From [Bacillus] enclensis (GTDB taxonomy: Bacteria > Bacillota > Bacilli > Bacillales > Bacillaceae_B): a stretch of 64,000 nt of DNA. Location of the stretch: contig NZ_KQ758482.1 of assembly GCF_001456935.1 (NCBI RefSeq), forward strand, positions 248,001-312,000, written 5' to 3'. Under the pieces are notes generated by a model, which did not search any database, was not told the origin of the DNA, and worked only from the letters and a program-made list of their open reading frames with translations. Positions 7,951 to 50,335 of the stretch are shown here, piece after piece (the stretch's first letter is position 1; every line of letters begins with the position of its first letter). Both the position numbers and the translations under genes were made by a program.

Positions 7951-9678
7951 ATGGATATTAGCATTACACCGATGAGCCACTTCGGTTCCTATATGGCCCT
8001 CACTTACCAGAAAAGAGAAACGCCAGAAAAAACAGGCTTGTACCTGAACTCGGTTAGGGGGAAATCCAAGCAGCACCAAAATGCCCTAAAGGTCATCCCG
8101 GCCGTGAACGGAAGCCCCGTTCCTTACACATATGAAGCAGACGAATTCCAGATCTCACTTTCCTTCGACGAAGGGGAACTTCACCTCTGCTTCGAGGATT
8201 CCGAGCGTATTTTTGTAAAAGGAACCGGAGACAATGTCGGGCTCATCCTCGACACCCAGCCAGTATTCAACTTCGAATACAACTATCTATTAGGGAATCC
8301 CGGCGAAGAATTCTGCCTGATCAACAGCTACAAGAATCTCACCAAGTACATGATCTTTGCCCCGGACGGCAACGTCTCCCTTCAGCAGAATGTTTTCATG
8401 GACACAACCGGGAGCACGGTCGAGGCGGATAATCTGTCTTCTATTCATATTTCCCAACTTGAAGGTGCCGGGGACTTCCTATGTGTTATCGAAGACGTGC
8501 CGACCAATGGGGGTTTCCCTGAAGAACGGGACTACTCATTCGAGGCCGCACTCGATAAAAGCACGAATCATTTTCTATCATTCTTGGAAAAACAGCCGGC
8601 TGTCCCTGCAGGATATGAACAAACACTGAGAGAAGCCGCGTATTTGAACTGGACCTGCATCGTCAATGAGCAAGGCCTGCTGAAACGAAAAGCGATGTAT
8701 ATGTCGAATGCAAACTTCCCTGGTGTATGGAGCTGGGACAACGCCTTCAACGGACTGGCCCTTGCCGGTGTCGACGATGAACTCGCATGGGATCAGATCC
8801 AGCTTCTATTCGACCACCAGGACGACAAAGGCCAGATCCCGGGTTCCGTCAGCGACTCGACCATCCGCTGGAACTTCTCCAAGCCGCCGGTGCAAGGTTT
8901 GTTCGTCTTGAAGATGATGGAAAAGATGACCCTCTCCACCGAACAGCTGGAGACCATTTTTTCACAGATCAAGAGACACGTAGAATTCTACCTTCAATAC
9001 AAGGACTTCAACCGCGACGGTATCTGCGAATACCATCACGGAAATGACTCCGGCCAGGACAACAGCACCGTGTTCAGGGATGCCGACATCATCGATTCAC
9101 CCGACCTGACAGCCTTCCTGATCAAATCGATGGACATGCTCGCAGTCGTGGCTGGAAAACTCAACAGGACAGAAGACCAAGCCCACTGGGAAAAAGAAGC
9201 GGACAGATACACAGAGAAATTCTGCGAATACTTCCTAGTTGACGACCTGCCCGTCGCCCGCTTCACAAGGGACAGAAAAGAGATCGAAAGCGAAGGCTAT
9301 CTGCCACTGGTTTCCATCATACTTGGGGAAAAACTGCCGGAATCTGCCCGCAGAAAAATGATCGAGACACTGAAGAGCGACCGCTACCTGACCAAATGGG
9401 GAATCGCCTCTGAAGCAATCGACAGCCCTCTTTATGAAGAAGATGCCTACTGGCGCGGCCCGATCTGGGCGCCGACCACCCTTCTGTTCGTGGAAGCATT
9501 TGAAGAATGCGGGGAACATGAACTGGCGAAGGACGTAGCCTGGAAATTCCTTGACCTTTGCAAGCACGGAGGATTCGCGGAGAACTTCCATGCTGAGACC
9601 GGTGAGGGATTGAGGGATCTTGCGCATACATGGACGTCGAGTGTGTTTATTCATTTGGCTGGGAGACTGGCTGGATAA
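7951..9678 (+). CDS. Six-hairpin glycoside hydrolase (GH63/MGH1-like), probable phospho-disaccharide hydrolase
   Basis: A 575-residue cytosolic protein with no signal peptide. An N-terminal beta-rich domain (about 1-195) precedes an alpha/alpha barrel (about 210-575). Visible signatures are GVWSWDNAFNG near residue 255, DNSTVFRDADIIDSPDL in the middle and YWRGPIWAPTTLLF near residue 505, typical of GH63, MGH1-like and trehalase-like (GH37) enzymes. ATG at 7951 is used because AAAGGAG lies 8 bases upstream; the GTG at 7942 overlaps that site. It is divergent from treP, where many bacilli carry the unrelated GH13 enzyme TreA, so it may hydrolyse trehalose 6-phosphate or a related phosphorylated sugar. 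Exact substrate unproven. Confidence 0.78.
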   Translation: MDISITPMSHFGSYMALTYQKRETPEKTGLYLNSVRGKSKQHQNALKVIPAVNGSPVPYTYEADEFQISLSFDEGELHLCFEDSERIFVKGTGDNVGLILDTQPVFNFEYNYLLGNPGEEFCLINSYKNLTKYMIFAPDGNVSLQQNVFMDTTGSTVEADNLSSIHISQLEGAGDFLCVIEDVPTNGGFPEERDYSFEAALDKSTNHFLSFLEKQPAVPAGYEQTLREAAYLNWTCIVNEQGLLKRKAMYMSNANFPGVWSWDNAFNGLALAGVDDELAWDQIQLLFDHQDDKGQIPGSVSDSTIRWNFSKPPVQGLFVLKMMEKMTLSTEQLETIFSQIKRHVEFYLQYKDFNRDGICEYHHGNDSGQDNSTVFRDADIIDSPDLTAFLIKSMDMLAVVAGKLNRTEDQAHWEKEADRYTEKFCEYFLVDDLPVARFTRDRKEIESEGYLPLVSIILGEKLPESARRKMIETLKSDRYLTKWGIASEAIDSPLYEEDAYWRGPIWAPTTLLFVEAFEECGEHELAKDVAWKFLDLCKHGGFAENFHAETGEGLRDLAHTWTSSVFIHLAGRLAG

Positions 9679-14321: not shown

Positions 14322-14358
14322 ATATAAAAAAGTAGACCGGGAACCGTTCCCGATCTAC
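14322..14358 (-). terminator. Terminator of the bacteriocin maturation operon
   Basis: On the minus strand GTAGATCGGGAAC pairs with GGTTCCCGGTCTAC and is followed by TTTTTTATA. It lies about 70 bases after the SagB-type gene. Confidence 0.9.
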
Positions 14359-14427: not shown

Positions 14428-16062
14428 CTAACTCAATAAGCTCCCTTTCATCCATCCCCGCTCCCGAAATGGCCCGATTGGTATTTGGATCAGGGTGGTT
14501 CTGCCACCGTAATCTGTCGTGCGGCCACCCGAATCGGCAGTTCGATCCCCAGAATCAGTCCTTCCACCCTCAAATTCCAATCCATAAATCCGATCCGTCA
14601 GCGTCGTATCAAACCCAAGCAGCGGGTGTCCGCCAAATCCCAAAGCGGAAGCAGTCAAAAGCAGTCGCTGGACAAGCATGCCGGCTTCCATCTGCATGAT
14701 CCTGTAGCCTCGGTATCCGAGGGTGTTTTTATAATGTTCTTTGTTAGCGACGATGTGAAGGCACAGCGGCACCTGAAGCAGATTGACGTTATCCATTGAC
14801 AAACCTGATTGCAGCTGCAGGCGGTAATCCCCTGTATCGATCTGCCGCAATGAATGACGGCCGCTGTCATAGTGGTAGGCGCCATCAGGTATGCCTTCTA
14901 CATTATAGAAACACCCGTATATCGAAACACGGGGTTCCACGTCGAAAGTCATTTCATCTATGTCGTTTCGGAAAGAGTGATGTGCACTTTTCAATAAAAC
15001 CGACAGCTGCTCCTGGCTCACCTTCCCCATCGCAAAATCCATCTCAGGTGAATAACGGTTTTTGCACGCCGAAACAAAATCATACTCGAGCGCCCCGGCC
15101 TCAGGCAAATGGATTTCTTTTTCCCAGCCGTCAACACGCGGCAGTCTGCCCAGCCTGCTAAAATACCCGGTACAATCCAGCTTGGAAGCTTCGTTCACCG
15201 CGAGTAACATCGGAAACTCCCTGACCTTTTCCGACCATTCGAAATGTTCAGTAGTAATAGAAGGCATCTTCCGGCATAATTCTGCACTCGTGAATTCGCC
15301 TCCCATTCCCCTCCTGGTTCCGGCCCAATTCGTTACAGCCGCCGAAAGCGGGATCACAGAATAGACGTTTTCTTCTTCCTCGTTCAGTCCAAGCAGGTGG
15401 TTGACGGCTGTATCAAGAAACTGAGTATACACCCCTGACTCAAACCCAAACCGTTTGCCTGTTTCAATCAGCTGTCCAACCGCAACGCCGGCATCCAGCC
15501 CCTGCAGCCGGTAAGAAAAGTTATTATATTTGAAAAAGTTTTTCCAGAATCGGGTGGAGACAAATACCGTGCCGAAACAGGATGAGATGTCACAGCGATT
15601 GCCGAGTGCCCGTTCCACATACGAATCAAAATTCCCTTCCCTGAGTAAGTCGAGGCGATGACGGGCGGCATCATAATGGTAGATTCCCTCCGGCAGATCA
15701 TCCAATTTTAAATAAAGATAAAGTTCATTCGGATACAGCGCCCCTCCGGAGGGAGCAAACCGCCGGTACGAGTGGACGGGGTAAGGCGCCTCTTCCCCGG
15801 GATCATCCCCATACACCGACTGGGTTACCGCGGTGATCCCGTAGACATACCAGAGAAAATGGCCGAGTCTTTCTAAATCAGGTTCAGACGGCGGCCGGAT
15901 CCCGGTGAGGGACAGCGGTACTTCTGCAGACAATGCCACCCCCGGCAATTTCCGGTACAGCTTATAGGGGAGTGGCGCATCATCCCAGTCCGCTTCCCAG
16001 TTCGGCTGATTGGCGCGCTCGATATCAAATTGCAGATTGTGCAGAAACTCTTCCAGATTCAT
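14428..16062 (-). CDS. SagB-type FMN dehydrogenase with two nitroreductase-like domains
   Basis: A 544-residue protein, about twice a single SagB domain. The N-terminal half holds a nitroreductase-type domain with RRFAPSGGALYPNELYLY near residue 105, typical of FMN-binding SagB dehydrogenases that oxidise azolines to azoles. A second, similar half starts near residue 345 (VSQEQLSVLLKSAHHSF, then YHYDSGRHSLRQ) but lacks the GGALYP motif. Close to the C-terminus is a Gly-Arg-Thr-rich imperfect repeat (about 505-530) absent from ordinary members. Ribosome binding site GGAGGTTAGGAGG precedes the ATG. It is the last gene of the maturation operon, 21 bases after the YcaO gene. Confidence 0.85.
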   Translation of the reverse strand: MNLEEFLHNLQFDIERANQPNWEADWDDAPLPYKLYRKLPGVALSAEVPLSLTGIRPPSEPDLERLGHFLWYVYGITAVTQSVYGDDPGEEAPYPVHSYRRFAPSGGALYPNELYLYLKLDDLPEGIYHYDAARHRLDLLREGNFDSYVERALGNRCDISSCFGTVFVSTRFWKNFFKYNNFSYRLQGLDAGVAVGQLIETGKRFGFESGVYTQFLDTAVNHLLGLNEEEENVYSVIPLSAAVTNWAGTRRGMGGEFTSAELCRKMPSITTEHFEWSEKVREFPMLLAVNEASKLDCTGYFSRLGRLPRVDGWEKEIHLPEAGALEYDFVSACKNRYSPEMDFAMGKVSQEQLSVLLKSAHHSFRNDIDEMTFDVEPRVSIYGCFYNVEGIPDGAYHYDSGRHSLRQIDTGDYRLQLQSGLSMDNVNLLQVPLCLHIVANKEHYKNTLGYRGYRIMQMEAGMLVQRLLLTASALGFGGHPLLGFDTTLTDRIYGLEFEGGRTDSGDRTADSGGRTTDYGGRTTLIQIPIGPFRERGWMKGSLLS

Positions 16063-16083
16063 CCTCCTAACCTCCCGAGTATC

Positions 16084-18030
16084 CTAAGGAAACGGATGCG
16101 GTTTTTGATTGAGCTGTTCGAATGATAACGGCCGGTCGGCATAGCCGAGTTCCGCCGGGACGTTCAGTACCCGTTCGAGTCCTGTCAGACGGGTAAGATG
16201 ATGCCCGAATGTCATCGGCAGCATGCCCGGGATCAGGACTTTCACACAGTGCAGGCCGTTCTTTTCCAGTTCCGGCGCGGTCTGGTCAACGACAATGACA
16301 TCCAGGTCCCGGCTGCCCAATGCGGCAAGGAGATCCTTCAGGTCATCCGTAAGATCACCGTGGACGGACGTCCATTTGAATTCCCCCTCGAAACTCCGCA
16401 ATGGCCGGCTGTCGTTCAGTAAAAATCCCAGCCGTTCTTCCGCCTGCGGCAGCCCATACAGCATGCCGTGATCATCCATCTGCCTCACCAGCGAGTCATC
16501 GTTCAGCATTTTTTCATATTTCCCCTTGTTCTTCTCCAGCTTTTCATCAAGATTCAGCATCATCCCGGCAAGCTCCTGGATCGCGCTCTTGGCCGCCCTG
16601 ACAGGATCCAGATGCGCGCCAGCCGCAAGGATCAGATTCAATCCTGCATCCTTCCTGTTCTTTGCTATCGCAAAGATACTCGGGATCCCATGCTCCATCG
16701 TGGCGTTATACAAATAAAGATCATACCCCGCGACCGCCCGCATCCGCTCAATCATCAACTCCAGTTCCTCATCCCCGGCAGACAGCGGATCAAGACGCGG
16801 CAGATTGAGCTCTGCATACCAGGTCAACAGGAATGAATCCCGTTCGACGACCTCCATGATTCCGTAAAAAATTGCTTCCTCCCGGCTTCCGCCTAATGCA
16901 CAGCCATTGGACGTCTCATAGACAAAACCGGCTGAGCCGCACCCTAGACTGTAATAGCTCAACAGTTCAGGGACGAGGATCGGCCGCTCTTCGATGAGAG
17001 AGTAGCCCCACACCCAGTCAATCGCCCTGTCCGGATCGAACTTCGCAAATGGAAATCCTGGCATGGCATATTGTTCATCGGTGTGCACGCCGACCTTCAA
17101 AGGATCGAGTGCCTGCCCCTTCACATTCCGGTAGCTGTCATGGACGACGGTCCGCTTGCCGCGCGGCTCCAGTCCGCAGTGGCGCTCCAGTCCTTCAAGG
17201 ATGGCGGTCAGCTCGCTGTCCGAGTATACTTGAGTCCGGCCGGCCGTCCCTTCATCCCCGTCGAACATCGGCATATTGACACTCGCATCCGCAAACGGCG
17301 TCACCAGGTCATACATCTTACTGTTAAAAAGTCCCGTCCTATTATCGAGATAATCTTTTACAAGAACGTCTTTCAACCCACCCAGCGGTTTACAGCGAAA
17401 ACTGCCCCTGTTGATTTTCGGGCTGGGCTGAAGGGACACACGGGCGAGTTCCGGTGTATCGTCCGGAATCCGGCTGCAGACCCCGCATAAAGAGTCGGGA
17501 ACGAAGGAGTGCCACGAGCTGTTCAATGATTTCAGTTCGGTCAGACATACCCTGCCTGCCGAATGCGGCCTTTCGCCCTCAATCACCCGGCGCGCTTCTG
17601 CTGCAATGATGTGAGCCATATGCACGAGACCGGTATTTGACGCCCACGGGTCCCTCGTCATTCCGCCGGCTTCAGCCAGTTTCCCCTGCACTTCCCGCAT
17701 CTCATGGCGTTCCTTCCCGCCGAGGAGACGCCGCAGATCGGCACATTGCGAGCATCCCGGTCTGTCTGGACGGACGAGCGGCCCGATGACTCCCTCCCCG
17801 AACGAAATAAATCCCCTCAGCCACGGGACTTGGGCCCCCCTCGTCACTTCTTCTGCCTGCTGATGAACGGCAGGATTCCACATATCATCCAGTGCCAGCA
17901 CCAAATCCGCACGCACAGGAAATCTTTTTTTAAAATTGCTTTGCCTGAACACGGGATACCAGGCGGAAATCTGCGCACAAACCCGGTCCGCAAGCATCCC
18001 GTCCCCGACAATCACCACGAAAGAATTCAT
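16084..18030 (-). CDS. TOMM leader-peptide-binding protein fused to YcaO cyclodehydratase
   Basis: A 648-residue fusion. The first 215 residues resemble the ThiF/ocin-type leader-binding module and contain two CxxC pairs (CSQC near 94, CGVC near 182) that probably bind zinc. Residues about 225-648 form a YcaO domain with the ATP-site glutamates in NGCALGGSREEAIFYGIMEVVERD and the later AAKSAIQEL stretch. The protein ends in KPHPFP, the Pro-rich C-terminus that YcaO enzymes need for catalysis. It would form thiazoline or oxazoline rings on the precursor using ATP. Its start overlaps the end of the preceding gene by 4 bases, showing translational coupling. Confidence 0.9.
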   Translation of the reverse strand: MNSFVVIVGDGMLADRVCAQISAWYPVFRQSNFKKRFPVRADLVLALDDMWNPAVHQQAEEVTRGAQVPWLRGFISFGEGVIGPLVRPDRPGCSQCADLRRLLGGKERHEMREVQGKLAEAGGMTRDPWASNTGLVHMAHIIAAEARRVIEGERPHSAGRVCLTELKSLNSSWHSFVPDSLCGVCSRIPDDTPELARVSLQPSPKINRGSFRCKPLGGLKDVLVKDYLDNRTGLFNSKMYDLVTPFADASVNMPMFDGDEGTAGRTQVYSDSELTAILEGLERHCGLEPRGKRTVVHDSYRNVKGQALDPLKVGVHTDEQYAMPGFPFAKFDPDRAIDWVWGYSLIEERPILVPELLSYYSLGCGSAGFVYETSNGCALGGSREEAIFYGIMEVVERDSFLLTWYAELNLPRLDPLSAGDEELELMIERMRAVAGYDLYLYNATMEHGIPSIFAIAKNRKDAGLNLILAAGAHLDPVRAAKSAIQELAGMMLNLDEKLEKNKGKYEKMLNDDSLVRQMDDHGMLYGLPQAEERLGFLLNDSRPLRSFEGEFKWTSVHGDLTDDLKDLLAALGSRDLDVIVVDQTAPELEKNGLHCVKVLIPGMLPMTFGHHLTRLTGLERVLNVPAELGYADRPLSFEQLNQKPHPFP

Positions 18031-19937
18031 TGGGCTTCCTCCTCTCGCAGCAGCACAGCAAACACGCCTTGGAGCTCTTTTTTAAAAACGGGTTCCATCT
18101 CCAGTTCATACACCGCTGCCCGCATCCCATTCCTCTTCAAGGTTTCAATGGCTTCTTTCAAGGAATCAGGCTGGATCCCATCTTCATCGCTAGAAATCGC
18201 GATTCTCCCTGCACTTCCTTCTGCAAATACAGCAGCAACAGGTTTGGCATCAAAAGCATCGGTACCGTTCTGGGCTTGAAAAATCGCATGCTGCAGCGAT
18301 TTCCTAAGTGCGGAGGTGCGCGTGAAATCTGCATTTCCATACCAGCCGTTTTTCCCGCGTACATAGACGACAGGAAATCCGGCCACGTCCTCACCCACCC
18401 CGATTTCCGGGTCTCCCTGCATCGTGGTCAGTGCCTTTAGATAAAACCTGCACCTTTCATCCTCGACCTCATCCAACTCAAGCCGGGAAATGGCACATGG
18501 TTGAACACTTTCCCTTTTTCTCAGCTCATCCGTCAGACATTTCCGGATCCCGCGTCCCACGCTTTCCGCAAACGTCGTCCCTGTGCAGGCCGCCATGTAT
18601 TCACCTTTACGATAAGGAACAATCGAACGGGCCAGCCTTGAAGCGTATGCCTCTATTCCTTGCAGCCCTGCTTCCCGCCGTGCCTCTTCATGGGTCAAGC
18701 CGCTGCAGACCATCTCATCCAGCAGTTCTGCCGGGCCCCCGGACAATACATCAACCGGCCTGACACGGCACTGCGCAAGCGGCAGCTGCTTTGTATCTCC
18801 TTCCTCCCATACATGGAAAACCCCTGTCTCCTTTGACGTCAGCAGACTGAAGAAATACAGTATTTTTTCAGTATCGCTTCTTTCTGATCCCTGCTCCAGC
18901 CGGGTTTCCAGGTTCCGGACAGCTTCAGCCGCTTTATTCCCGGTCTCCAGCGGATGCGGCAAAAAGGAATGCCAGCTTCCTTCAAGCGTTTCTGTGTCCA
19001 GCAGGAAGATCCGATTTCTCTGGGTCGGTTTCGTCACTCCCGTTATCTCTTTAAACGCTTCAAAGACAATCATGTTCGCGAGCATCGCGGCCGGGATCGC
19101 CGATGGGGCAGGGCACTGTTCTTTTTTTCTAAATGCAGTGGTGTGTATGCGTCTCCATGCAAAGTTCCAGCCAGCCTCTGAATCAGGATGGATGATCGGC
19201 CCGGCGATACCTTTCTGCTGGTGGCAGATTGCCGGGACAAACAGCTTTTTATCCTCCCTGCAAATGGCCTGGAGCCGGTCCAATTCCTCAAGGTTTTCGT
19301 TTTGCGTCACATATAAAATTAAATCGAACGGCTTCAAAGTCTCCCGCCACCCGTCTTCACTGAACGCGACTCCATGCAGCTCCAGCTCCGGATCAGTTTG
19401 ACGGGCATGGTCCACATGCTCGAGAATCCGTCCTCTATTCGTCGGCGCTTCATCTGTGATCAGAACCTGCAGCTTTGCCGTCCCGGATTCGATCAGAGAA
19501 GAAACGAGTGAGGTCAAAAAAGGACCGGAACCCACTGCCAGCACATTGGAATGGCGGTAGGTCTCAAATCTTGATGCACCCGAATCTGCCAAACTATCTA
19601 CAAACTCGATCTGTGATGCGAACTTTTCCACGGCATGCCGGGGCAGCCCGTGCGGCAGATCCCTGCTCACATCGCGGACAAATCCATTGGAGTGCAGGAC
19701 CTCCGCAATTTCCATGACCCTGTTTTTATAAGCATCCGGCAGTCCGTTCGTCATATACTCAAGCGAGTATTCCCCATTGAACATCGGCAGCAGCTTCTCT
19801 ACCCACTGATCGATCCCGCTGCCTTCCATCCGGAAAGAGCACTGGTTATTCCTGAAATAAACACCCCTGTCTGGTTCAGGGAGGTAAAACGTATCTCTCT
19901 TCACTTTCAAGCGCATAGAAGGGTCCAACTTTTCCAT
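18027..19937 (-). CDS. Putative thiazole-containing bacteriocin maturation protein (ThiF-like)
   Basis: A 636-residue protein from ATG 19937, where GGAAGGAGG lies 8 bases upstream; the longer frame to 19985 lacks a site. It resembles the maturation protein of heterocycloanthracin-type clusters, a divergent E1/ThiF-like protein. The N-terminal third could be a winged-helix leader-recognition region, followed by a Rossmann-like core (NVLAVGSGPFLTSLVSSLIESG near residue 130). It probably works with the YcaO protein as the cyclodehydratase complex. Its gene is the first of the three-gene maturation operon and lies about 240 bases downstream of the precursor, with a terminator in between. Confidence 0.87.
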   Translation of the reverse strand: MEKLDPSMRLKVKRDTFYLPEPDRGVYFRNNQCSFRMEGSGIDQWVEKLLPMFNGEYSLEYMTNGLPDAYKNRVMEIAEVLHSNGFVRDVSRDLPHGLPRHAVEKFASQIEFVDSLADSGASRFETYRHSNVLAVGSGPFLTSLVSSLIESGTAKLQVLITDEAPTNRGRILEHVDHARQTDPELELHGVAFSEDGWRETLKPFDLILYVTQNENLEELDRLQAICREDKKLFVPAICHQQKGIAGPIIHPDSEAGWNFAWRRIHTTAFRKKEQCPAPSAIPAAMLANMIVFEAFKEITGVTKPTQRNRIFLLDTETLEGSWHSFLPHPLETGNKAAEAVRNLETRLEQGSERSDTEKILYFFSLLTSKETGVFHVWEEGDTKQLPLAQCRVRPVDVLSGGPAELLDEMVCSGLTHEEARREAGLQGIEAYASRLARSIVPYRKGEYMAACTGTTFAESVGRGIRKCLTDELRKRESVQPCAISRLELDEVEDERCRFYLKALTTMQGDPEIGVGEDVAGFPVVYVRGKNGWYGNADFTRTSALRKSLQHAIFQAQNGTDAFDAKPVAAVFAEGSAGRIAISSDEDGIQPDSLKEAIETLKRNGMRAAVYELEMEPVFKKELQGVFAVLLREEEAQ

Positions 19938-20097
19938 AACGCTCCTCCTTCCCCCGCTGCTTTCAATTGTTGTAGTGACCGTCATTACTATCGTATGAAA
20001 CTCAATTTGTCCCTTATGTAAAGAAAATCAGAAGCGGCTGGTTCAGTTTCTGGGAACGCTTTAGGGGGCCGGATTTCATGCGGGGATCGTGCTCTCA

Positions 20098-20139
20098 TAA
20101 AAAAGAAAGACCCCTGCGCTGATTCATGCAGGGATCCTT
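20098..20139 (-). terminator. Terminator after the precursor gene
   Basis: On the minus strand CCCTGC (20133-20128) pairs with GCAGGG (20117-20112) and is followed by a T-rich tract (TCTTTCTTTTTT). Precursor message would mostly stop here, giving more precursor than maturation enzymes. Confidence 0.75.
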
Positions 20140-20173
20140 TTGAACACTATATTCTACATGCTGATTAACGTCC

Positions 20174-20428
20174 TCAGCGACCGCATCTGCCGCAGCCACC
20201 GCAACGGCCACACCCTCCGCAGCGTCCGCATCCGCCGCAGCGGAAGCATCCTCCGCAGCCAAAACAACTGAAGAAGCAAGAGAAGCCAAACCCGAAACAG
20301 CCCCCAAATCCAAGGAAAAGCCTTTCGTCATTTGGATCATACATATGCTGATCCCAGGAAACAGGCTGTGTTACCTGGAAATCCCCTACATTTAGACCTT
20401 GAAGTTCATGGTGAAAATTATTCATCAT
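20174..20428 (-). CDS. Heterocycloanthracin/sonorensin-family bacteriocin precursor
   Basis: An 84-residue peptide from ATG 20428, the codon 8 bases after GGGAGGT; ATG 20425 is also possible, and an upstream ATG at 20434 sits too near the site. The leader (residues about 1-37) has the family pattern NNFHHELQGL...WDQ. The core holds 12 cysteines, of which the last nine fall every third residue (CGGCFRCGGCGRC...), and it begins with a Phe/Gly/Ser-rich stretch (FGGCFGFGFSCFFSC). The neighbouring YcaO and SagB-type enzymes would turn cysteines (and perhaps serine) into azoles. No exporter or immunity gene is adjacent. Confidence 0.93.
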   Translation of the reverse strand: MMNNFHHELQGLNVGDFQVTQPVSWDQHMYDPNDERLFLGFGGCFGFGFSCFFSCFGCGGCFRCGGCGRCGGCGRCGGCGRCGR

Positions 20429-20618
20429 CTTCATTACCTCCCAAATAAAATAGCCAGTGGCCCTCATCCAAGAAACATCTTTTAAGAAAAAGTTCTGTCA
20501 TTAGGTGTATTCACTAGTCATATGAACACTCCCAAACAATTTATGTGATTTAGGGAGGTGTTGTTACTGATGTAAAAGCCTAATTTGGAAATTGGAGGGA
20601 GATGAAGGGCAATAAAAA

Positions 20619-20650
20619 GAAGCATGGACCGGATTCGCGCATGCTTCGAA
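20619..20650 (-). terminator. Hairpin with T tract upstream of the precursor gene
   Basis: GAAGCATG pairs with CATGCTTC, with TTTTTATT on the minus strand. It may insulate the precursor gene from the upstream DinB gene. Confidence 0.5.
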
Positions 20651-20679
20651 ATGGGATGGGTACTGCGGTTGGTGGTAAT

Positions 20680-20708
20680 GGGGGTTGGGGTTGGGGTTGG
20701 GGTTGGGG
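20680..20708 (+). repeat. (TTGGGG)n G-quadruplex-type repeat
   Basis: Five G runs of at least four bases separated by TT give a telomere-like sequence. It sits about 250 bases upstream of the bacteriocin precursor on the opposite strand. The rest of the 20.43-20.86 kb gap shows only the hairpin at 20619 and a short CCCGATAATACCC like the right end of family A. Confidence 0.9.
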
Positions 20709-20864
20709 CTGGAGGCTGAAGTCTCGTATACCCGATAATACCCTGCTGATCACTTGAACCCTTCACGACTAGGAAGGTAAAGAAAGATTCCCGCCTCTAA
20801 AACATTAATAAACACCGGAATATATAGGATCCTCTCCCTTATTGGCTGCCAGAGAAAGCACAAA

Positions 20865-45711: not shown

Positions 45712-46818
45712 TCAAACCTTGATCTTCCGCCCCTTCCAATTCACCGAATGAAATACATTCACCCTGATGAAGGAGTACAGATAGACCCCTGCAAAAAACA
45801 CAAACAGTATCGGATAAAATGGGAAAACCGCCCATCTGAAGTTGCCGACCCTGCGGGCAAACCATGCTGTTTGAAGCATATAGAGGATATACATCACTCC
45901 GCTAAATATCAATGCTGGAACGTCCCATTCAATGATGGAAGTGAGCAATGCCCCGGATGTGATGAAACTGCCGGCAATCCAGAAGATGACCATCAGCATG
46001 ACGGCTGGATGGGTGGATTTGGAGCCGACTGCAAAGCTTTTGCACCAGCCTTCGATCAGGCTGCCGAGGCCTTCCGGGTACATGCGCAGCGAAATGATTC
46101 CTTTGCCGCCGAGGCAGCGGACCGGGAGATTTTTTTCAAGAAATGCCTCCCCCAGGGCGAGGTCATCCATGATGGCCCCCTCGATTCCCAAGTGCCCTCC
46201 AGACAAAAAATAATCGTCCCGGTTACATAGTATGCAGGGACCGAACGAGCCGGCGGTTTTAAACCGTGATCCCCAGATCGTAAACAGATTCATCCCCACC
46301 ACAACGATGATGTTAAAGACAATGGAGAGATGTTCATACCACCGTTCCACTGTATGAAAGGGCTGCAACGCAACGATGCCCCGGGCTCCTTTTGACTGGT
46401 AGAACTGCATCAGACTACGGATGCCATCCACACTGGTGAACCGCGTATCTGCATCCAAAAACAACAGCCAGCTCCCTTTTGCCTTTTCGGCACCGATCCA
46501 GCAGGCCGAAGACTTCCCTGCCCCTGTGTTCTTCAGGACCGTAGCACCGTATCTTTCCGCAACTTCCGACGTTTTGTCAGTTGAATCGTCATCCACCACC
46601 AGTATTTCAAATTGCTTGAACCGCTGCTCCTGCAAGGATTGCAGTAACGGCGGGATCCTGCCCTCTTCATTCCTGGCAGGGATGATAATGGACAGAAACG
46701 GGAGGCCGGCCGAGTTTCTGTTGGAGAACCCGGGAACCGGCAAGGACCAGAACATGGGGATGCCGATCAACACGGCCAGAAACCCAATCGCTAGACTAAT
46801 CACTTCCGATGTTGTCAT
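45712..46818 (-). CDS. crtQ: Glycosyltransferase family 2, diaponeurosporenoate glucosyltransferase type
   Basis: A 368-residue membrane-bound GT-A glycosyltransferase. It opens with a membrane helix, then LSIIIPARNEE (about residue 43), the DDDST and DADT motifs for nucleotide-sugar and metal binding, and terminal membrane helices (about 280-345). It matches staphylococcal CrtQ along its length, including the RGIVALQPFHTVERWYEHLS stretch. It would add glucose to a C30 carotenoid carboxylate. ATG 46818 is used because AAAGGAGG lies 9 bases upstream. It follows crtN by 48 bases. Confidence 0.85.
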   Translation of the reverse strand: MTTSEVISLAIGFLAVLIGIPMFWSLPVPGFSNRNSAGLPFLSIIIPARNEEGRIPPLLQSLQEQRFKQFEILVVDDDSTDKTSEVAERYGATVLKNTGAGKSSACWIGAEKAKGSWLLFLDADTRFTSVDGIRSLMQFYQSKGARGIVALQPFHTVERWYEHLSIVFNIIVVVGMNLFTIWGSRFKTAGSFGPCILCNRDDYFLSGGHLGIEGAIMDDLALGEAFLEKNLPVRCLGGKGIISLRMYPEGLGSLIEGWCKSFAVGSKSTHPAVMLMVIFWIAGSFITSGALLTSIIEWDVPALIFSGVMYILYMLQTAWFARRVGNFRWAVFPFYPILFVFFAGVYLYSFIRVNVFHSVNWKGRKIKV

Positions 46819-46866
46819 AAAACCCGCCTCCTTTCTGCGTGAGAGCATACCCTCAACACTAAACCT

Positions 46867-48393
46867 CTATTTCACTGAGTAATCATACATCTCCCCGGTA
46901 TCGTCCTGGATCAGTTCCTGCGCCGTGATCCTTGCCGATAACAGCACGATCGGGACACCGGCGCCGGGGTGGGTGCTGCTTCCTGTAAAATATAAATTCT
47001 CACAGTGGCTGGCCTTGCTTTGCGGACGATAGTGGTTGCTCTGATCCAGCGTTGGCTGCAGCCCAAACGTCGCACCGTTATAAGCATTGAATTTCGATTG
47101 GAAGTCGAGTGGTGTGGTGCACGTTTCTGTTACAATCTCATTTTCGATGTTTTCAAACCCGCGGATCTTCTTCAGTTCATTTAAAATATAGCTTCGATAA
47201 TACGAGATGGTCTCCTCGTCCCATTGATAGTCTGCGGCCGCTACATTGGAGACGGGCATCAGGATATACAAACCGTCTTTCCCCTCGGGTGCAAGGGAAG
47301 GGTCCAATTTTGAAGCGATATAGACATAAAAGGAGGCATTGGTCAGTTTCTTGCCGTCAAAAATATCCTCCAGATTCTGATTGAGGTTTTCATTGAAAAT
47401 AAAATTATGTACATGCTCGATTTCTTCATATTTACGGTCCATTCCGAGATATAAGAGAAAACAGGAACAGGAATATTTCATACTGTCGATTTTTTTATCG
47501 GTGAACTTCCCTTTCGCCCTTTTATCTTTGACCAAGTGTTTCATGGCGTAAGGGAAGTCTGCATTACAGACGACATAATCCGAAGGGATTTTCTGGCCCT
47601 CAACGATGATCCCGTCCGCCCTGCGATTCCCAATGCTAATTTCATCAACAGCTTTCCCGTAATGAATGGTCCCGCCAAGTTCCTTGAAGAGCCTCTCCAT
47701 CGCAAGGGCCATCGTAAACATCCCGCCCTTGATGAACCAAACTCCATATAAAAACTGAATCATTGGGATCATCGTATAAAAAGACGGGCTCTTCAACGGA
47801 GAAATGCCTATGTATAATGTCTGAAAGCTGATTAGCTGCTTCAGCCGTTCATTTTTGATGAATTTTCCGATAAAAGAATCGGCCGTGTCGTACGGTTTCA
47901 GTTTCAGCGCTTTCTTCAGCATCGGAAGGTTGTAAAAATCAGACCTCTTGCGGAATGGCCGATGGAGGATGTGATTCTTTGCAATGACGAACCGTTTGTA
48001 AATTTCATGCAGGTAGTTAAAAAAACCTGCCGTGTCCTCTTCGCTGATCGATTCAATCGTCTTGGTGAGTTCGGTAAGGTCCGAGGAAATGTCAAAGGGT
48101 TTGTCGGGAATGTCACTGAAATACGCGCGGTAAATCGGATCTAATTTTTGCATCGGAATATAATCGTCTGGATCGCGTCCGCATAATTCGAACAGTTCGC
48201 GGTACAGCTCAGGCATCATGACGATGCTCGGACCGAGATCGAATGTGTAGCCATCCAGCTCAATCCGGTTCATCTTGCCGCCGGGTGTGGATCCTTTCTC
48301 ATACAGCTCCACCTGATACCCCGCGTGCTGCAGTCTGATGGCACTGGCAAGCCCCGCGACACCTGCACCGACGATAATCACCTTTTTACTCAT
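46867..48393 (-). CDS. crtN: 4,4'-diapophytoene desaturase
   Basis: A 508-residue FAD-dependent desaturase. The N-terminal Rossmann motif IVGAGVAGLASA, then GGKMNRIELDGYTFDLGPSIVMMP, and the C-terminal LYFTGSSTHPGAGVPIVLLSA match staphylococcal CrtN along its length. It would introduce double bonds into 4,4'-diapophytoene. ATG 48393 is preferred over the ATG two codons earlier because GGAGG is 8 bases upstream of it. Confidence 0.9.
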   Translation of the reverse strand: MSKKVIIVGAGVAGLASAIRLQHAGYQVELYEKGSTPGGKMNRIELDGYTFDLGPSIVMMPELYRELFELCGRDPDDYIPMQKLDPIYRAYFSDIPDKPFDISSDLTELTKTIESISEEDTAGFFNYLHEIYKRFVIAKNHILHRPFRKRSDFYNLPMLKKALKLKPYDTADSFIGKFIKNERLKQLISFQTLYIGISPLKSPSFYTMIPMIQFLYGVWFIKGGMFTMALAMERLFKELGGTIHYGKAVDEISIGNRRADGIIVEGQKIPSDYVVCNADFPYAMKHLVKDKRAKGKFTDKKIDSMKYSCSCFLLYLGMDRKYEEIEHVHNFIFNENLNQNLEDIFDGKKLTNASFYVYIASKLDPSLAPEGKDGLYILMPVSNVAAADYQWDEETISYYRSYILNELKKIRGFENIENEIVTETCTTPLDFQSKFNAYNGATFGLQPTLDQSNHYRPQSKASHCENLYFTGSSTHPGAGVPIVLLSARITAQELIQDDTGEMYDYSVK

Positions 48394-48588
48394 GTGCATT
48401 CCCTCCTCTCCAAAAACCCCTCAACCTTTTCTCATACCATTGTTTCCAAATATCAGGTATTGCAACAACCGCTATGTCAATATGATCACATTTGCCCGGA
48501 AAAAGGCGGGAATTCCCCAACCCAAGTTCGCGGAGAACGCGCCGCTTCATCGATGATGCCGGGGCTTCCCCCCTCCCCTTTCCGGTCA

Positions 48589-50085
48589 TCAGGCAAGGGA
48601 TGAATCCCTCTCCACAATTTTCCTGCCTACCAGCTGGCCGCTCAACGTAACCATCGGCATTCCACCGCCAGGGTTCACTGTGCCGCCGACAAAATAGAGA
48701 TTGTTATAGCGTTCACTCTGTTTCGGATGCTTGAATCCTTTATTCTTCTTTTTGTCCGACACGGTCCCGTAGATCGCGCCGCGGTCGGAGCCGTATGTCC
48801 TCCTGATATCTTCCGGGGTCCACATATCCCTGGTGACAATATTCTCGCGTAAGCCTTCGAGGCCCATTTTTTCCAATTTGATCAGAGTCCGCTCAGCGAA
48901 TTGTTCATAGTCCTGTTGCGTAAACGGGTTCTCGTCCCGGATAAAAGGAATATGCGGCAGCACTTTTATATTTTCATGACCCGGAGGAGCCTGCGTCGGA
49001 TCGGTCTTATTGACGTTGACCAGATAAATGACCGGATCCTTTGGCAGCTCGCGGCGATGGAAGATCGATTGCATCTGCTCCTTCATGTTTTCAGCAAAAA
49101 AGAAATTATGATGGCGCAGCTGCGGATAGCTTTTCTTCACGCCGAGATGCATGACGAGTCCGGAGCTCGCCGGCTCGAATTTCTTTTTCAATTTTTTAAT
49201 ATAATGGCTGTCTTCCTCCAGCAGTCTCTCGTAAACCGGAATGACTTCCATATTGGAAACGAAATAATCCGCCGTCAGCATGGTCCCGTCTTCCAATACG
49301 GCCCCCGTGATCTCGCCGTCCTTTTTTTCAAGTTTGACGATCGGCTTTCCGAGATGGAAGTTGACGCCCACTTCTTCCGCCAGCTTCACGAGTCCGTCTG
49401 CGAGCTTGTTCAAACCGCCGGGCACATACCACACACCCTGGTCATGCTGCATGTAGATCATCATATTCAGCACGGCGGGAGCATCATAAGGCGACGAACC
49501 GACGTACTTGATGAAATAGGAAAGCATATCGCGAAATTGCTCATTGCTGATCCGTTTATCAATGGCGCCGTGGACCGTCGAAAACAGATCAAAGTTCTTG
49601 ATTGCACTGAACAGGCCCGTATGCTTCATGATTTCCCTCGTCCGGTCGACACCATGCTGGAAATAGGTCTTATCCGTCATGTCATAAAGCGTTTTCGAAT
49701 AGTCCAGCAGATCCTGATATTCAGAGATATCCTTTTCAGTCAGGGACGGATTCTTCTCCAGCATGTCGGTCAAATTTTCATATAAGTCTATGACATTTCC
49801 ATCTGGAAAAAAGGAGCGCCACTGATGATCCAGCTTCTCGATCCGGACGTAGTCCTTCATCGATTTTCCGCTCGCTGCAAATAAACGCTCAAAAATCTGC
49901 GGCATCGTCAGGATGGACGGTCCGAGATCAAAGCCGAAACCATCCTGATCCAGCCGGTTCAGCTTCCCGCCGATGTGATTGTTTTTTTCATATAAGGAGA
50001 CATCGTATCCGGCCTGTGCCAGTGAAATCGCAGCCGACAATCCGCCGAGTCCGCCTCCGATGACGAGAACAGTTTTATTTTTCAT
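48589..50085 (-). CDS. crtP: 4,4'-diaponeurosporene oxygenase
   Basis: A 498-residue FAD enzyme closely matching staphylococcal CrtP: LVIGGGLGGLSAAISLAQ at the start, GFGFDLGPSILTMPQIF near residue 50, and the C-terminal YFVGGTVNPGGGMPMVTLSG end. It would oxidise the terminal methyl of the C30 carotenoid chain. ATG 50085 has GGAGG 11 bases upstream; upstream in-frame ATGs lack sites. The 195-base gap to crtN has no gene. The head gene for the C30 chain (crtM) is not in the window. Confidence 0.9.
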   Translation of the reverse strand: MKNKTVLVIGGGLGGLSAAISLAQAGYDVSLYEKNNHIGGKLNRLDQDGFGFDLGPSILTMPQIFERLFAASGKSMKDYVRIEKLDHQWRSFFPDGNVIDLYENLTDMLEKNPSLTEKDISEYQDLLDYSKTLYDMTDKTYFQHGVDRTREIMKHTGLFSAIKNFDLFSTVHGAIDKRISNEQFRDMLSYFIKYVGSSPYDAPAVLNMMIYMQHDQGVWYVPGGLNKLADGLVKLAEEVGVNFHLGKPIVKLEKKDGEITGAVLEDGTMLTADYFVSNMEVIPVYERLLEEDSHYIKKLKKKFEPASSGLVMHLGVKKSYPQLRHHNFFFAENMKEQMQSIFHRRELPKDPVIYLVNVNKTDPTQAPPGHENIKVLPHIPFIRDENPFTQQDYEQFAERTLIKLEKMGLEGLRENIVTRDMWTPEDIRRTYGSDRGAIYGTVSDKKKNKGFKHPKQSERYNNLYFVGGTVNPGGGMPMVTLSGQLVGRKIVERDSSLA

Positions 50086-50335
50086 CCGTAAACGCACCTC
50101 CATTTCCATTGATACTGCCTTTATGTAAATCCTTGTACCCGCCGCTTTTTCCCTCATGAAATGTAAAAACCGCTTGCCCATGCACTGTGTCCATATCGGT
50201 CTCCTCCTGATCCCTCTCCGGATCGTTAAAATCTGATAAAACGGCTTGGTTCAGCCTTTTTGTGATGCTATCAAGTCTGTATCCTCAGCCCTTATTTTAT
50301 ACCCTTGTTCTCCTTCAAAAAACTTTGGGTGTGTT

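Follow-up and report, generated by a model that had tools for sequence, protein, structure and literature searches.

The heterocycloanthracin locus of [Bacillus] enclensis

We analysed a stretch of 64,000 nucleotides of the genome of [Bacillus] enclensis (assembly GCF_001456935.1, contig NZ_KQ758482.1, positions 248,001 to 312,000; hereafter the window), which carries a predicted gene cluster for a heterocycloanthracin, i.e. a thiazole/oxazole-modified peptide. Both transcription units of this cluster are preceded by conserved elements that resemble promoters of the sporulating mother cell. The host genome comprises 4.48 Mb in 18 contigs; judged by the F protein, one of the maturation proteins of the cluster, its nearest named relatives are mostly Rossellomorea (R. 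aquimaris at 81% is the best match, Bacillus haikouensis reaches 80%).

The cluster consists of four genes forming one co-directional block on the minus strand, transcribed in the order precursor, F protein, fused YcaO protein and SagB. The precursor (20174-20428; TIGR03601) is an 84-aa member of the heterocycloanthracin/sonorensin family, whose core contains 12 Cys and 2 Ser residues. The F protein (18027-19985; TIGR03693) is a TOMM protein of the ocin-ThiF-like, leader-binding type. The cyclodehydratase (16084-18030; TIGR03604 and TIGR03882) joins the partner domain and YcaO in one protein with a C-terminal PHPFP, and the dehydrogenase (14428-16062; TIGR03605) is a SagB-type flavin mononucleotide enzyme with two nitroreductase-like domains. 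An earlier note on this DNA had placed the four genes at these positions and proposed a full modification set of the heterocycloanthracin type, and both proposals were borne out, as NCBIfam assigned all four proteins to the heterocycloanthracin pathway above its curated cut-offs. The family search that the note had recommended for the precursor gave a match to TIGR03601 of 49.6 bits against a cut-off of 35 (46.2 bits in a search of the whole genome). The F protein scored 704.3 bits (cut-off 561.9), the YcaO protein 406.8 bits with TIGR03604 and 140.5 bits with TIGR03882, and SagB 212.3 bits in two stretches.

The proteins of the window retain nearly all of the near-invariant columns (those at least 96% identical among relatives), namely 113 of 115 in the F protein, 198 of 198 in YcaO and 135 of 138 in SagB, and the three enzymes therefore look intact; the loss of catalytic residues, which the note had named as grounds for abandoning its proposal, was not seen in this check of column conservation. 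Since a promoter-like element, described below, occupies 19988-20018, translation of the F protein probably begins at 19937, with MEKLDPSMRL like that of its relatives. All 51 SagB proteins compared have the catalytic Lys-Tyr pair (FKYNNFSYR in the window) at the corresponding position of domain 1, whereas the matching place of domain 2 has it in none and reads Gly-Tyr in 45. This confinement of the pair to the first domain suggests that SagB is a pseudo-dimer made of one chain, in which a single active site remains. The SagB of the window also carries, near its C-terminus (approximately 14506-14568, minus strand), a 21-residue repetitive insert, GGRTDSGDRTADSGGRTTDYG, which is missing from the other 50 aligned relatives. 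The whole locus is a predicted complete minimal heterocycloanthracin pathway and, as sequence, an ordinary member of the family.

A sigma-K/GerE-like promoter upstream of the precursor gene

The regulatory DNA was compared in three sets of loci. The main set comprised 53 loci gathered by the F protein (the window and 52 named contigs), most of them with 10 kb on each side and some ending earlier at contig ends. The genus set held 23 precursors, from genomes that partly overlap the main set, and the class set held 30 precursor loci representing other families of the class; a single Paenibacillus-like family accounts for 13 of them.

When the DNA preceding the 23 precursors of the genus set was aligned, one strongly conserved block emerged. 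In the window it corresponds to a promoter-like element at 20537-20585 (minus strand), composed of a GerE-like box, AATTAGGCTTTT (20574-20585), a sigma-K-like -35 sequence, AGTAACA (20562-20568), and a sigma-K-like -10 sequence, CATAAATTG (20537-20545). The box matches RWWTRGGYNNYY, which we take to be the GerE-box consensus. Promoters of sigma-K and sigma-E have a common -10 sequence and differ at position 4 of the -35 sequence, which is C for sigma-K and T for sigma-E, and the gap of sigma-K promoters is 14-16 (PMC517825, in part). The pair found in the window agrees with this description of sigma-K promoters, taken from the text and not from the sequence logos that place the letters, in all three respects (C at position 4, a gap within 14-16 and a -10 of the CATA type).

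The strict form of the pattern, AC-N17-CATA-NNN-T[AG], was found in 48 of the 53 loci; in 40 the -35 sequence was also preceded by TRGGY at a constant distance, and 31 had the full RWWTRGGYNNYY, while 200 dinucleotide shuffles of the same loci gave means of 0.36, 0 and 0, respectively. A relaxed composite, TRGGY-N10-16-AC-N16-18-CATA, whose spacings were chosen after the class alignment had shown one-base variants, was present in 22 of 23 genus, 41 of 53 main and 18 of 30 class loci, compared with shuffle means of about 0.1 and one match per set on the opposite strand. It preceded none of 686 other open reading frames (ORFs) of the same loci, and its occurrences extend over Rossellomorea, Mesobacillus, Cytobacillus, Oceanobacillus, Metabacillus, Sutcliffiella, Priestia, Paenibacillus and other genera. 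The consensus of the 48 loci, aaaaTaGGCtTtT..aTcaGTaACAAtacCca........aCATAa.TTG, is anchored on AC-N17-CATA, so that these letters are fixed by construction; conservation is concentrated between -22 and about +35 relative to the -35 sequence, and the mean outside -22 to +30 is 0.36 bits per position. An earlier version of the composite, whose spacing was incorrect, did not match the window's own element and gave 9 matches against 23 in its control; it was discarded.

Before the F gene a sigma-K form occurred in 5 of 53 loci, and in two of these it was the precursor promoter itself. Promoters of the sigma-70 type were not in excess: the region has 5 matches, where 5.2 would be expected, one weak match overlapping the precursor start, and a vegetative promoter was rejected on this ground.

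A second promoter-like element and hairpins of the enzyme operon

Between the precursor and the enzyme genes lies a terminator-like hairpin (20099-20136, minus strand) with a CCCTG...CAGGG stem and a T-rich tail, which is conserved in the genus. A hairpin scan with a loop limit of 8 gives this hairpin for the plus strand only, and a loose stem-and-T rule, applied without a chance control, matched 35 of 51 intergenic regions. The operon ends in another terminator-like hairpin (14332-14358, minus strand; 12 pairs and a T run), the longest of 7 such sites in a region where 7.1 are expected.

A second conserved element, CATAAGGGACAAATTGAGTTTCATACGATA, is located between the first hairpin and the F gene (19988-20018, minus strand). 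It reads as a sigma-E-like promoter, CATAAGG...CATACGATA, containing a SpoIIID-like sequence, GGACAAAT, at 20005-20012 (minus strand). The pattern ATA-N16-18-CATA preceded the enzyme operon in 42 of 53 loci and 34 of 689 other ORFs, and the more specific CATA-N2-5-GACAA-N7-10-CATA in 39 of 53 loci and none of 689. A looser pattern written after the class results had been seen, RRACAR-N9-11-CATA, occurred in 45 of 53 main and 23 of 27 class loci compared with 8 of 692 other ORFs; RRACAR resembles what we presume to be a SpoIIID site. The enzyme operon thus appears to have its own sigma-E/SpoIIID-like promoter element. The conserved promoter-like elements and the hairpins are additions to what the earlier note had described.

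As a positive control we used cotZ-like genes. In one paralogue of the same genus TRGGY was found at -79 in 9 of 9 loci, and its distance to a -10-like element, CGTATGATA, is, by eye, near that of the precursor promoter (30 versus 32 nt).

The upstream element of the precursor reads as a GerE box with a sigma-K promoter and, considered jointly with the enzyme promoter, makes it likely, in our judgement, that the heterocycloanthracin pathway is governed by the sporulation programme of the mother cell. Several observations weigh against this interpretation. The strict sigma-K form is missing in 5 of the 53 loci and the relaxed composite in 12; in the class set the three strict forms were recovered in only 6, 5 (with TRGGY) and 3 (full GerE box) of 30 loci (shuffle means 0.36, 0 and 0), and the relaxed spacings are a choice made with that set in view. 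The two sigma-E-type forms were likewise found in only 7 and 6 of 27 class loci (shuffles 0.49 and 0), and a third form in 1 of 27. AC-N16-18-CATA alone, present in 49 of 53 precursor loci, is common before other ORFs (101 of 686), and therefore the weight rests on the composite. The spacing in the window is one base longer than in two proven promoters (bclA and bclB), and its -10 sequence ends in TG. The cot controls added further points of this kind: of the 30 cotZ loci only 4 had AC-N16-18-CATA, and its positions varied, TRGGY was absent from all 21 loci of the second cotZ paralogue (coding strand, up to 190 nt from the start), and cotX was dropped as a control since only 2 of 21 genomes had it. 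The B. cereus group, in which the family was founded, yielded no locus for the promoter scans, as none of the 8 records obtained from the plasmid collection belongs to it. Two published observations belong here as well, although they fit either reading: sonorensin is reported to be antimicrobial and to damage membranes (PMC4544038, in part), and a family member is upregulated in biofilm cells of B. cereus (PMC6962202, in part).

The upstream elements might also belong to another regulator and merely resemble sporulation sites. The shortness of the consensus sequences taken for GerE and SpoIIID and the only partial outcome of the cot controls leave room for such an explanation. We consider it improbable, given that two different elements of the mother-cell type stand at the two transcription units of one cluster, both with CATA at -10 and near the expected spacing, and given the fixed distance of the GerE box in 40 of 53 loci and the absence of the composite before 686 other ORFs.

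Sporulation regulators and distribution of the cluster

The host genome has a SpoIIID match and a 74-aa stand-alone ORF of the LuxR type, situated among murI-, MarR-, thioesterase-, sdhB- and sdhA-like ORFs (names assigned by eye), which we take as GerE; the GerE of B. cereus also has 74 aa and differs very little from its B. subtilis counterpart (PMC5595907, in part). Among 398 genomes of the class, SpoIIID (E of at most 0.001) was found in all 65 with a precursor above the cut-off and in 201 of the 333 others (Fisher p 4e-13, a value inflated by the relatedness of the genomes). With a looser limit for the precursor the count was 70 of 71, the exception being a 22-bit match with five stops.

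Of the 36 genus genomes, 22 have a precursor above its cut-off, and it is these 22 that have an F protein above its own, at 23 sites each, one genome having two copies. Every one of the 53 loci has a precursor-like ORF (the weakest matches, in three loci, had E values of 0.003-0.04), and in nearly all it stands directly before the F gene. One locus, in which this ORF lies about 5.3 kb from the F gene, is intermediate between the adjacent and the distant arrangements. YcaO is missing only in one locus (L025) and SagB only in this one and another (L066), both on short contigs which, by their length, end within or before the respective gene.

No exporter, protease or immunity gene common to the 53 loci was found: gene families beyond the enzymes and the precursor occur in at most 11 loci, one of these families represents out-of-frame shadows of the precursor, and a family that is ABC-ATPase-like (by eye transporter-like) occurs in 7. 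A hidden exporter or immunity gene was therefore rejected as a shared feature of the clusters, and the earlier remark that neither is visible near the cluster holds more widely. This agrees with published surveys, according to which an exporter is not universal for the family (Haft 2009, PMC2674419) and only the cyclodehydratase, F and B proteins occur in all such clusters (PMC4603692, in part).

These data bear on the possibility that the product is an ordinary secreted bacteriocin of stationary phase, synthesised vegetatively, with a housekeeping transporter or one encoded at a distance for its export and an immunity gene at another site. The members of the family were named as bacteriocins (PMC2674419), the activity reported for sonorensin (PMC4544038, in part) is in line with the name, and, since the universal genes are only those of the cyclodehydratase, F and B proteins (PMC4603692, in part), export, if any, must be encoded elsewhere. 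Still, we regard this explanation as unlikely: the region has no excess of sigma-70-type promoters, mother-cell-type elements are conserved at both transcription units, the precursor is confined to genomes with SpoIIID, and its core is conserved within the genus and not diversified. The term bacteriocin used in the earlier note was a label and not evidence: the loci share no export or immunity gene, and their conserved promoter-like elements point to the sporulating mother cell.

Elsewhere in the window, a glycosyltransferase-like ORF and two phytoene-desaturase-like ORFs (45712-50181, minus strand) resemble, by eye, a carotenoid pigment cluster.

The precursor core

The Phe/Gly/Ser-rich start of the core, FGGCFGFGFSCFFSC, had been thought to differ from published ones, so that the product would probably be new. 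This expectation did not hold: the start CF[FY]SCFGCGG was found in 22 of 23 genus precursors, and FGFSCFFSCFG also begins the core in loci of Mesobacillus and Cytobacillus (e.g. L075 and L052). A unique core was accordingly rejected; the core of the window precursor is uncharacterised, not unique. Differences among precursors are mainly tripeptide insertions and deletions of the CGG/CGR type, as described for B. cereus by Haft 2009 (PMC2674419).

Among 22 genus precursors, the ratio of non-synonymous to synonymous change (pN/pS) came to 0.083 in the leader, 0.082 in the first part of the core and 0.070 in the ladder, values to be read with the high synonymous change (pS 0.4-0.6) and the possible exchange among repeats in mind. 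Core and leader thus seem to be under equal constraint, with purifying selection on both, and a core conserved in this way is unlike what would be predicted for a bacteriocin engaged in an arms race.

In a refinement of the mother-cell reading, the peptide would be a component of the spore envelope, not an antibiotic: a Cys-rich azole peptide placed, during the phase of GerE activity, on the coat or the exosporium, with a role in structure, as an ultraviolet screen, or in metal or redox buffering. Besides the equal purifying selection on core and leader, the known sigma-K/GerE control of exosporium and coat genes (PMC4750369 and PMC517825, both in part) and the lack of a widely shared exporter or immunity gene speak for it. 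The killing activity reported for sonorensin speaks against it, the location of the product on the spore is a matter of inference, and the cluster is patchily present (22 of 36 genus genomes), so that the peptide is not required for spores as such. On balance we see this refinement as possible, at something below an even chance.

Some precursors depart from the common form. In Oceanobacillus salinisoli a precursor-like ORF (locus L063, near position 9529; weak match, E 0.04) has, in place of the ladder, a Cys/His core of HCHHCHTQYHCHA repeats that looks metal-binding. One genome (G029; loci L008 and L023) contains two copies of the precursor and F genes about 2.5 Mb apart, whose cores differ, and two class genomes of one family (G216, with locus L097, and G227) have six precursor matches each, where one enzyme set might possibly serve many precursors. 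In the window itself, a plus-strand ORF (20602-20757, encoding GWGWGW) was considered as a second precursor and judged spurious, as it overlaps a hairpin that by eye is terminator-like and a GGGGTT repeat. About five copies of GGGGTT lie at 20681-20712, just upstream of the GerE-like box, and the hairpin beside them resembles, by eye, the terminator of a DinB-like gene.

Discussion

The proposed control by the mother cell suggests how the pathway might operate. Judging from the two promoters, sigma-E and SpoIIID would direct synthesis of the enzymes early in the mother cell, and sigma-K and GerE that of the precursor at a later stage. By analogy with the family, the F protein would hold the leader of the precursor, YcaO with ATP would form azolines from the Cys (perhaps also Ser) residues of the ladder, and SagB would oxidise these to azoles, at most 12 thiazoles and 2 oxazoles. 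The product would accumulate just before lysis of the mother cell and be left with or around the spore. GerE of B. subtilis also activates the lytic enzymes cwlC and cwlH (PMC517825, in part), and synthesis of the precursor and lysis would therefore be timed together. We propose that an exporter would be unnecessary because lysis frees the product, and an immunity gene because the producer dies while the spore is dormant.

Whether the product is a free antimicrobial or a component of the spore surface appears about equally likely. A broader generalisation, which we put forward tentatively and with the balance against it, is that the family serves primarily as a system of azole peptides in the development of endospore-forming bacteria and not as a group of secreted bacteriocins, in which enzymes controlled by sigma-E/SpoIIID and a precursor controlled by sigma-K/GerE would yield a polythiazole carried on the spore or released with it at lysis. 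SapB of Streptomyces is a morphogenetic ribosomally synthesised and post-translationally modified peptide, and the developmental family would be its endospore counterpart.

Heterocycloanthracin clusters have been catalogued since 2009, without a universal exporter or immunity gene and, in the literature covered, without a settled function, and a conserved promoter of the late mother cell offers one reason for both gaps: the peptide would be made as the producer nears lysis. If this is true, the product should be sought in late sporulation, in the lysate and on spores and not in vegetative medium. Sporulation biology would then gain a peptide with azole modifications as a mother-cell product, either an antibiotic guarding the spore or a part of its surface.

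As for known systems, the gene set is a member of a known family and its control DNA is the new part. No link of the family to sigma-K, GerE or the mother cell was found in the literature searched, which covers few subscription journals, nor in the passages available of PMC6962202, PMC9586298, PMC10745906 and PMC4363619. The window locus shares with the heterocycloanthracin of B. anthracis and B. cereus (Haft 2009; TIGR03601) the leader family, the CxxC ladder and the set of F protein, fused YcaO and SagB. In B. anthracis, however, the precursor is encoded 1.27 Mb from the enzymes (PMC2674419), whereas that of the window adjoins them and has its own promoter-like element and hairpin. The B. 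licheniformis member resembles the window locus in that the precursor lies beside the maturation genes and has a core of repeated CxxC, but its ladder is built of Cys-Trp-Ser triplets (PMC2674419) and that of the window of Cys-Gly-Arg/Cys-Gly-Gly, following the FGFSCFFSC start; sonorensin has been assigned to the same subfamily (PMC4544038, in part).

According to the available part of PMC4603692, which lists 254 heterocycloanthracin clusters, thiocillin-type thiopeptide clusters belong to the same group of F-protein-dependent fused cyclodehydratases; roughly 100 aa of the C domain are missing from the cyclodehydratase of the family, and F-protein-dependent cyclodehydration has, as cited there, been reconstituted in vitro. 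Unlike the thiocillin-type clusters, the 53 loci have no further widely shared modification gene. In their control DNA, the closest parallels are the exosporium genes bclB, bxpB and cotB of B. thuringiensis, which have a -35/-10 pair of the sigma-K type and a GerE site (PMC4750369, in part), resembled by the sigma-K-like pair and the GerE-like box of the window precursor; these genes encode structural proteins, whereas the window locus is predicted to encode a modified peptide.

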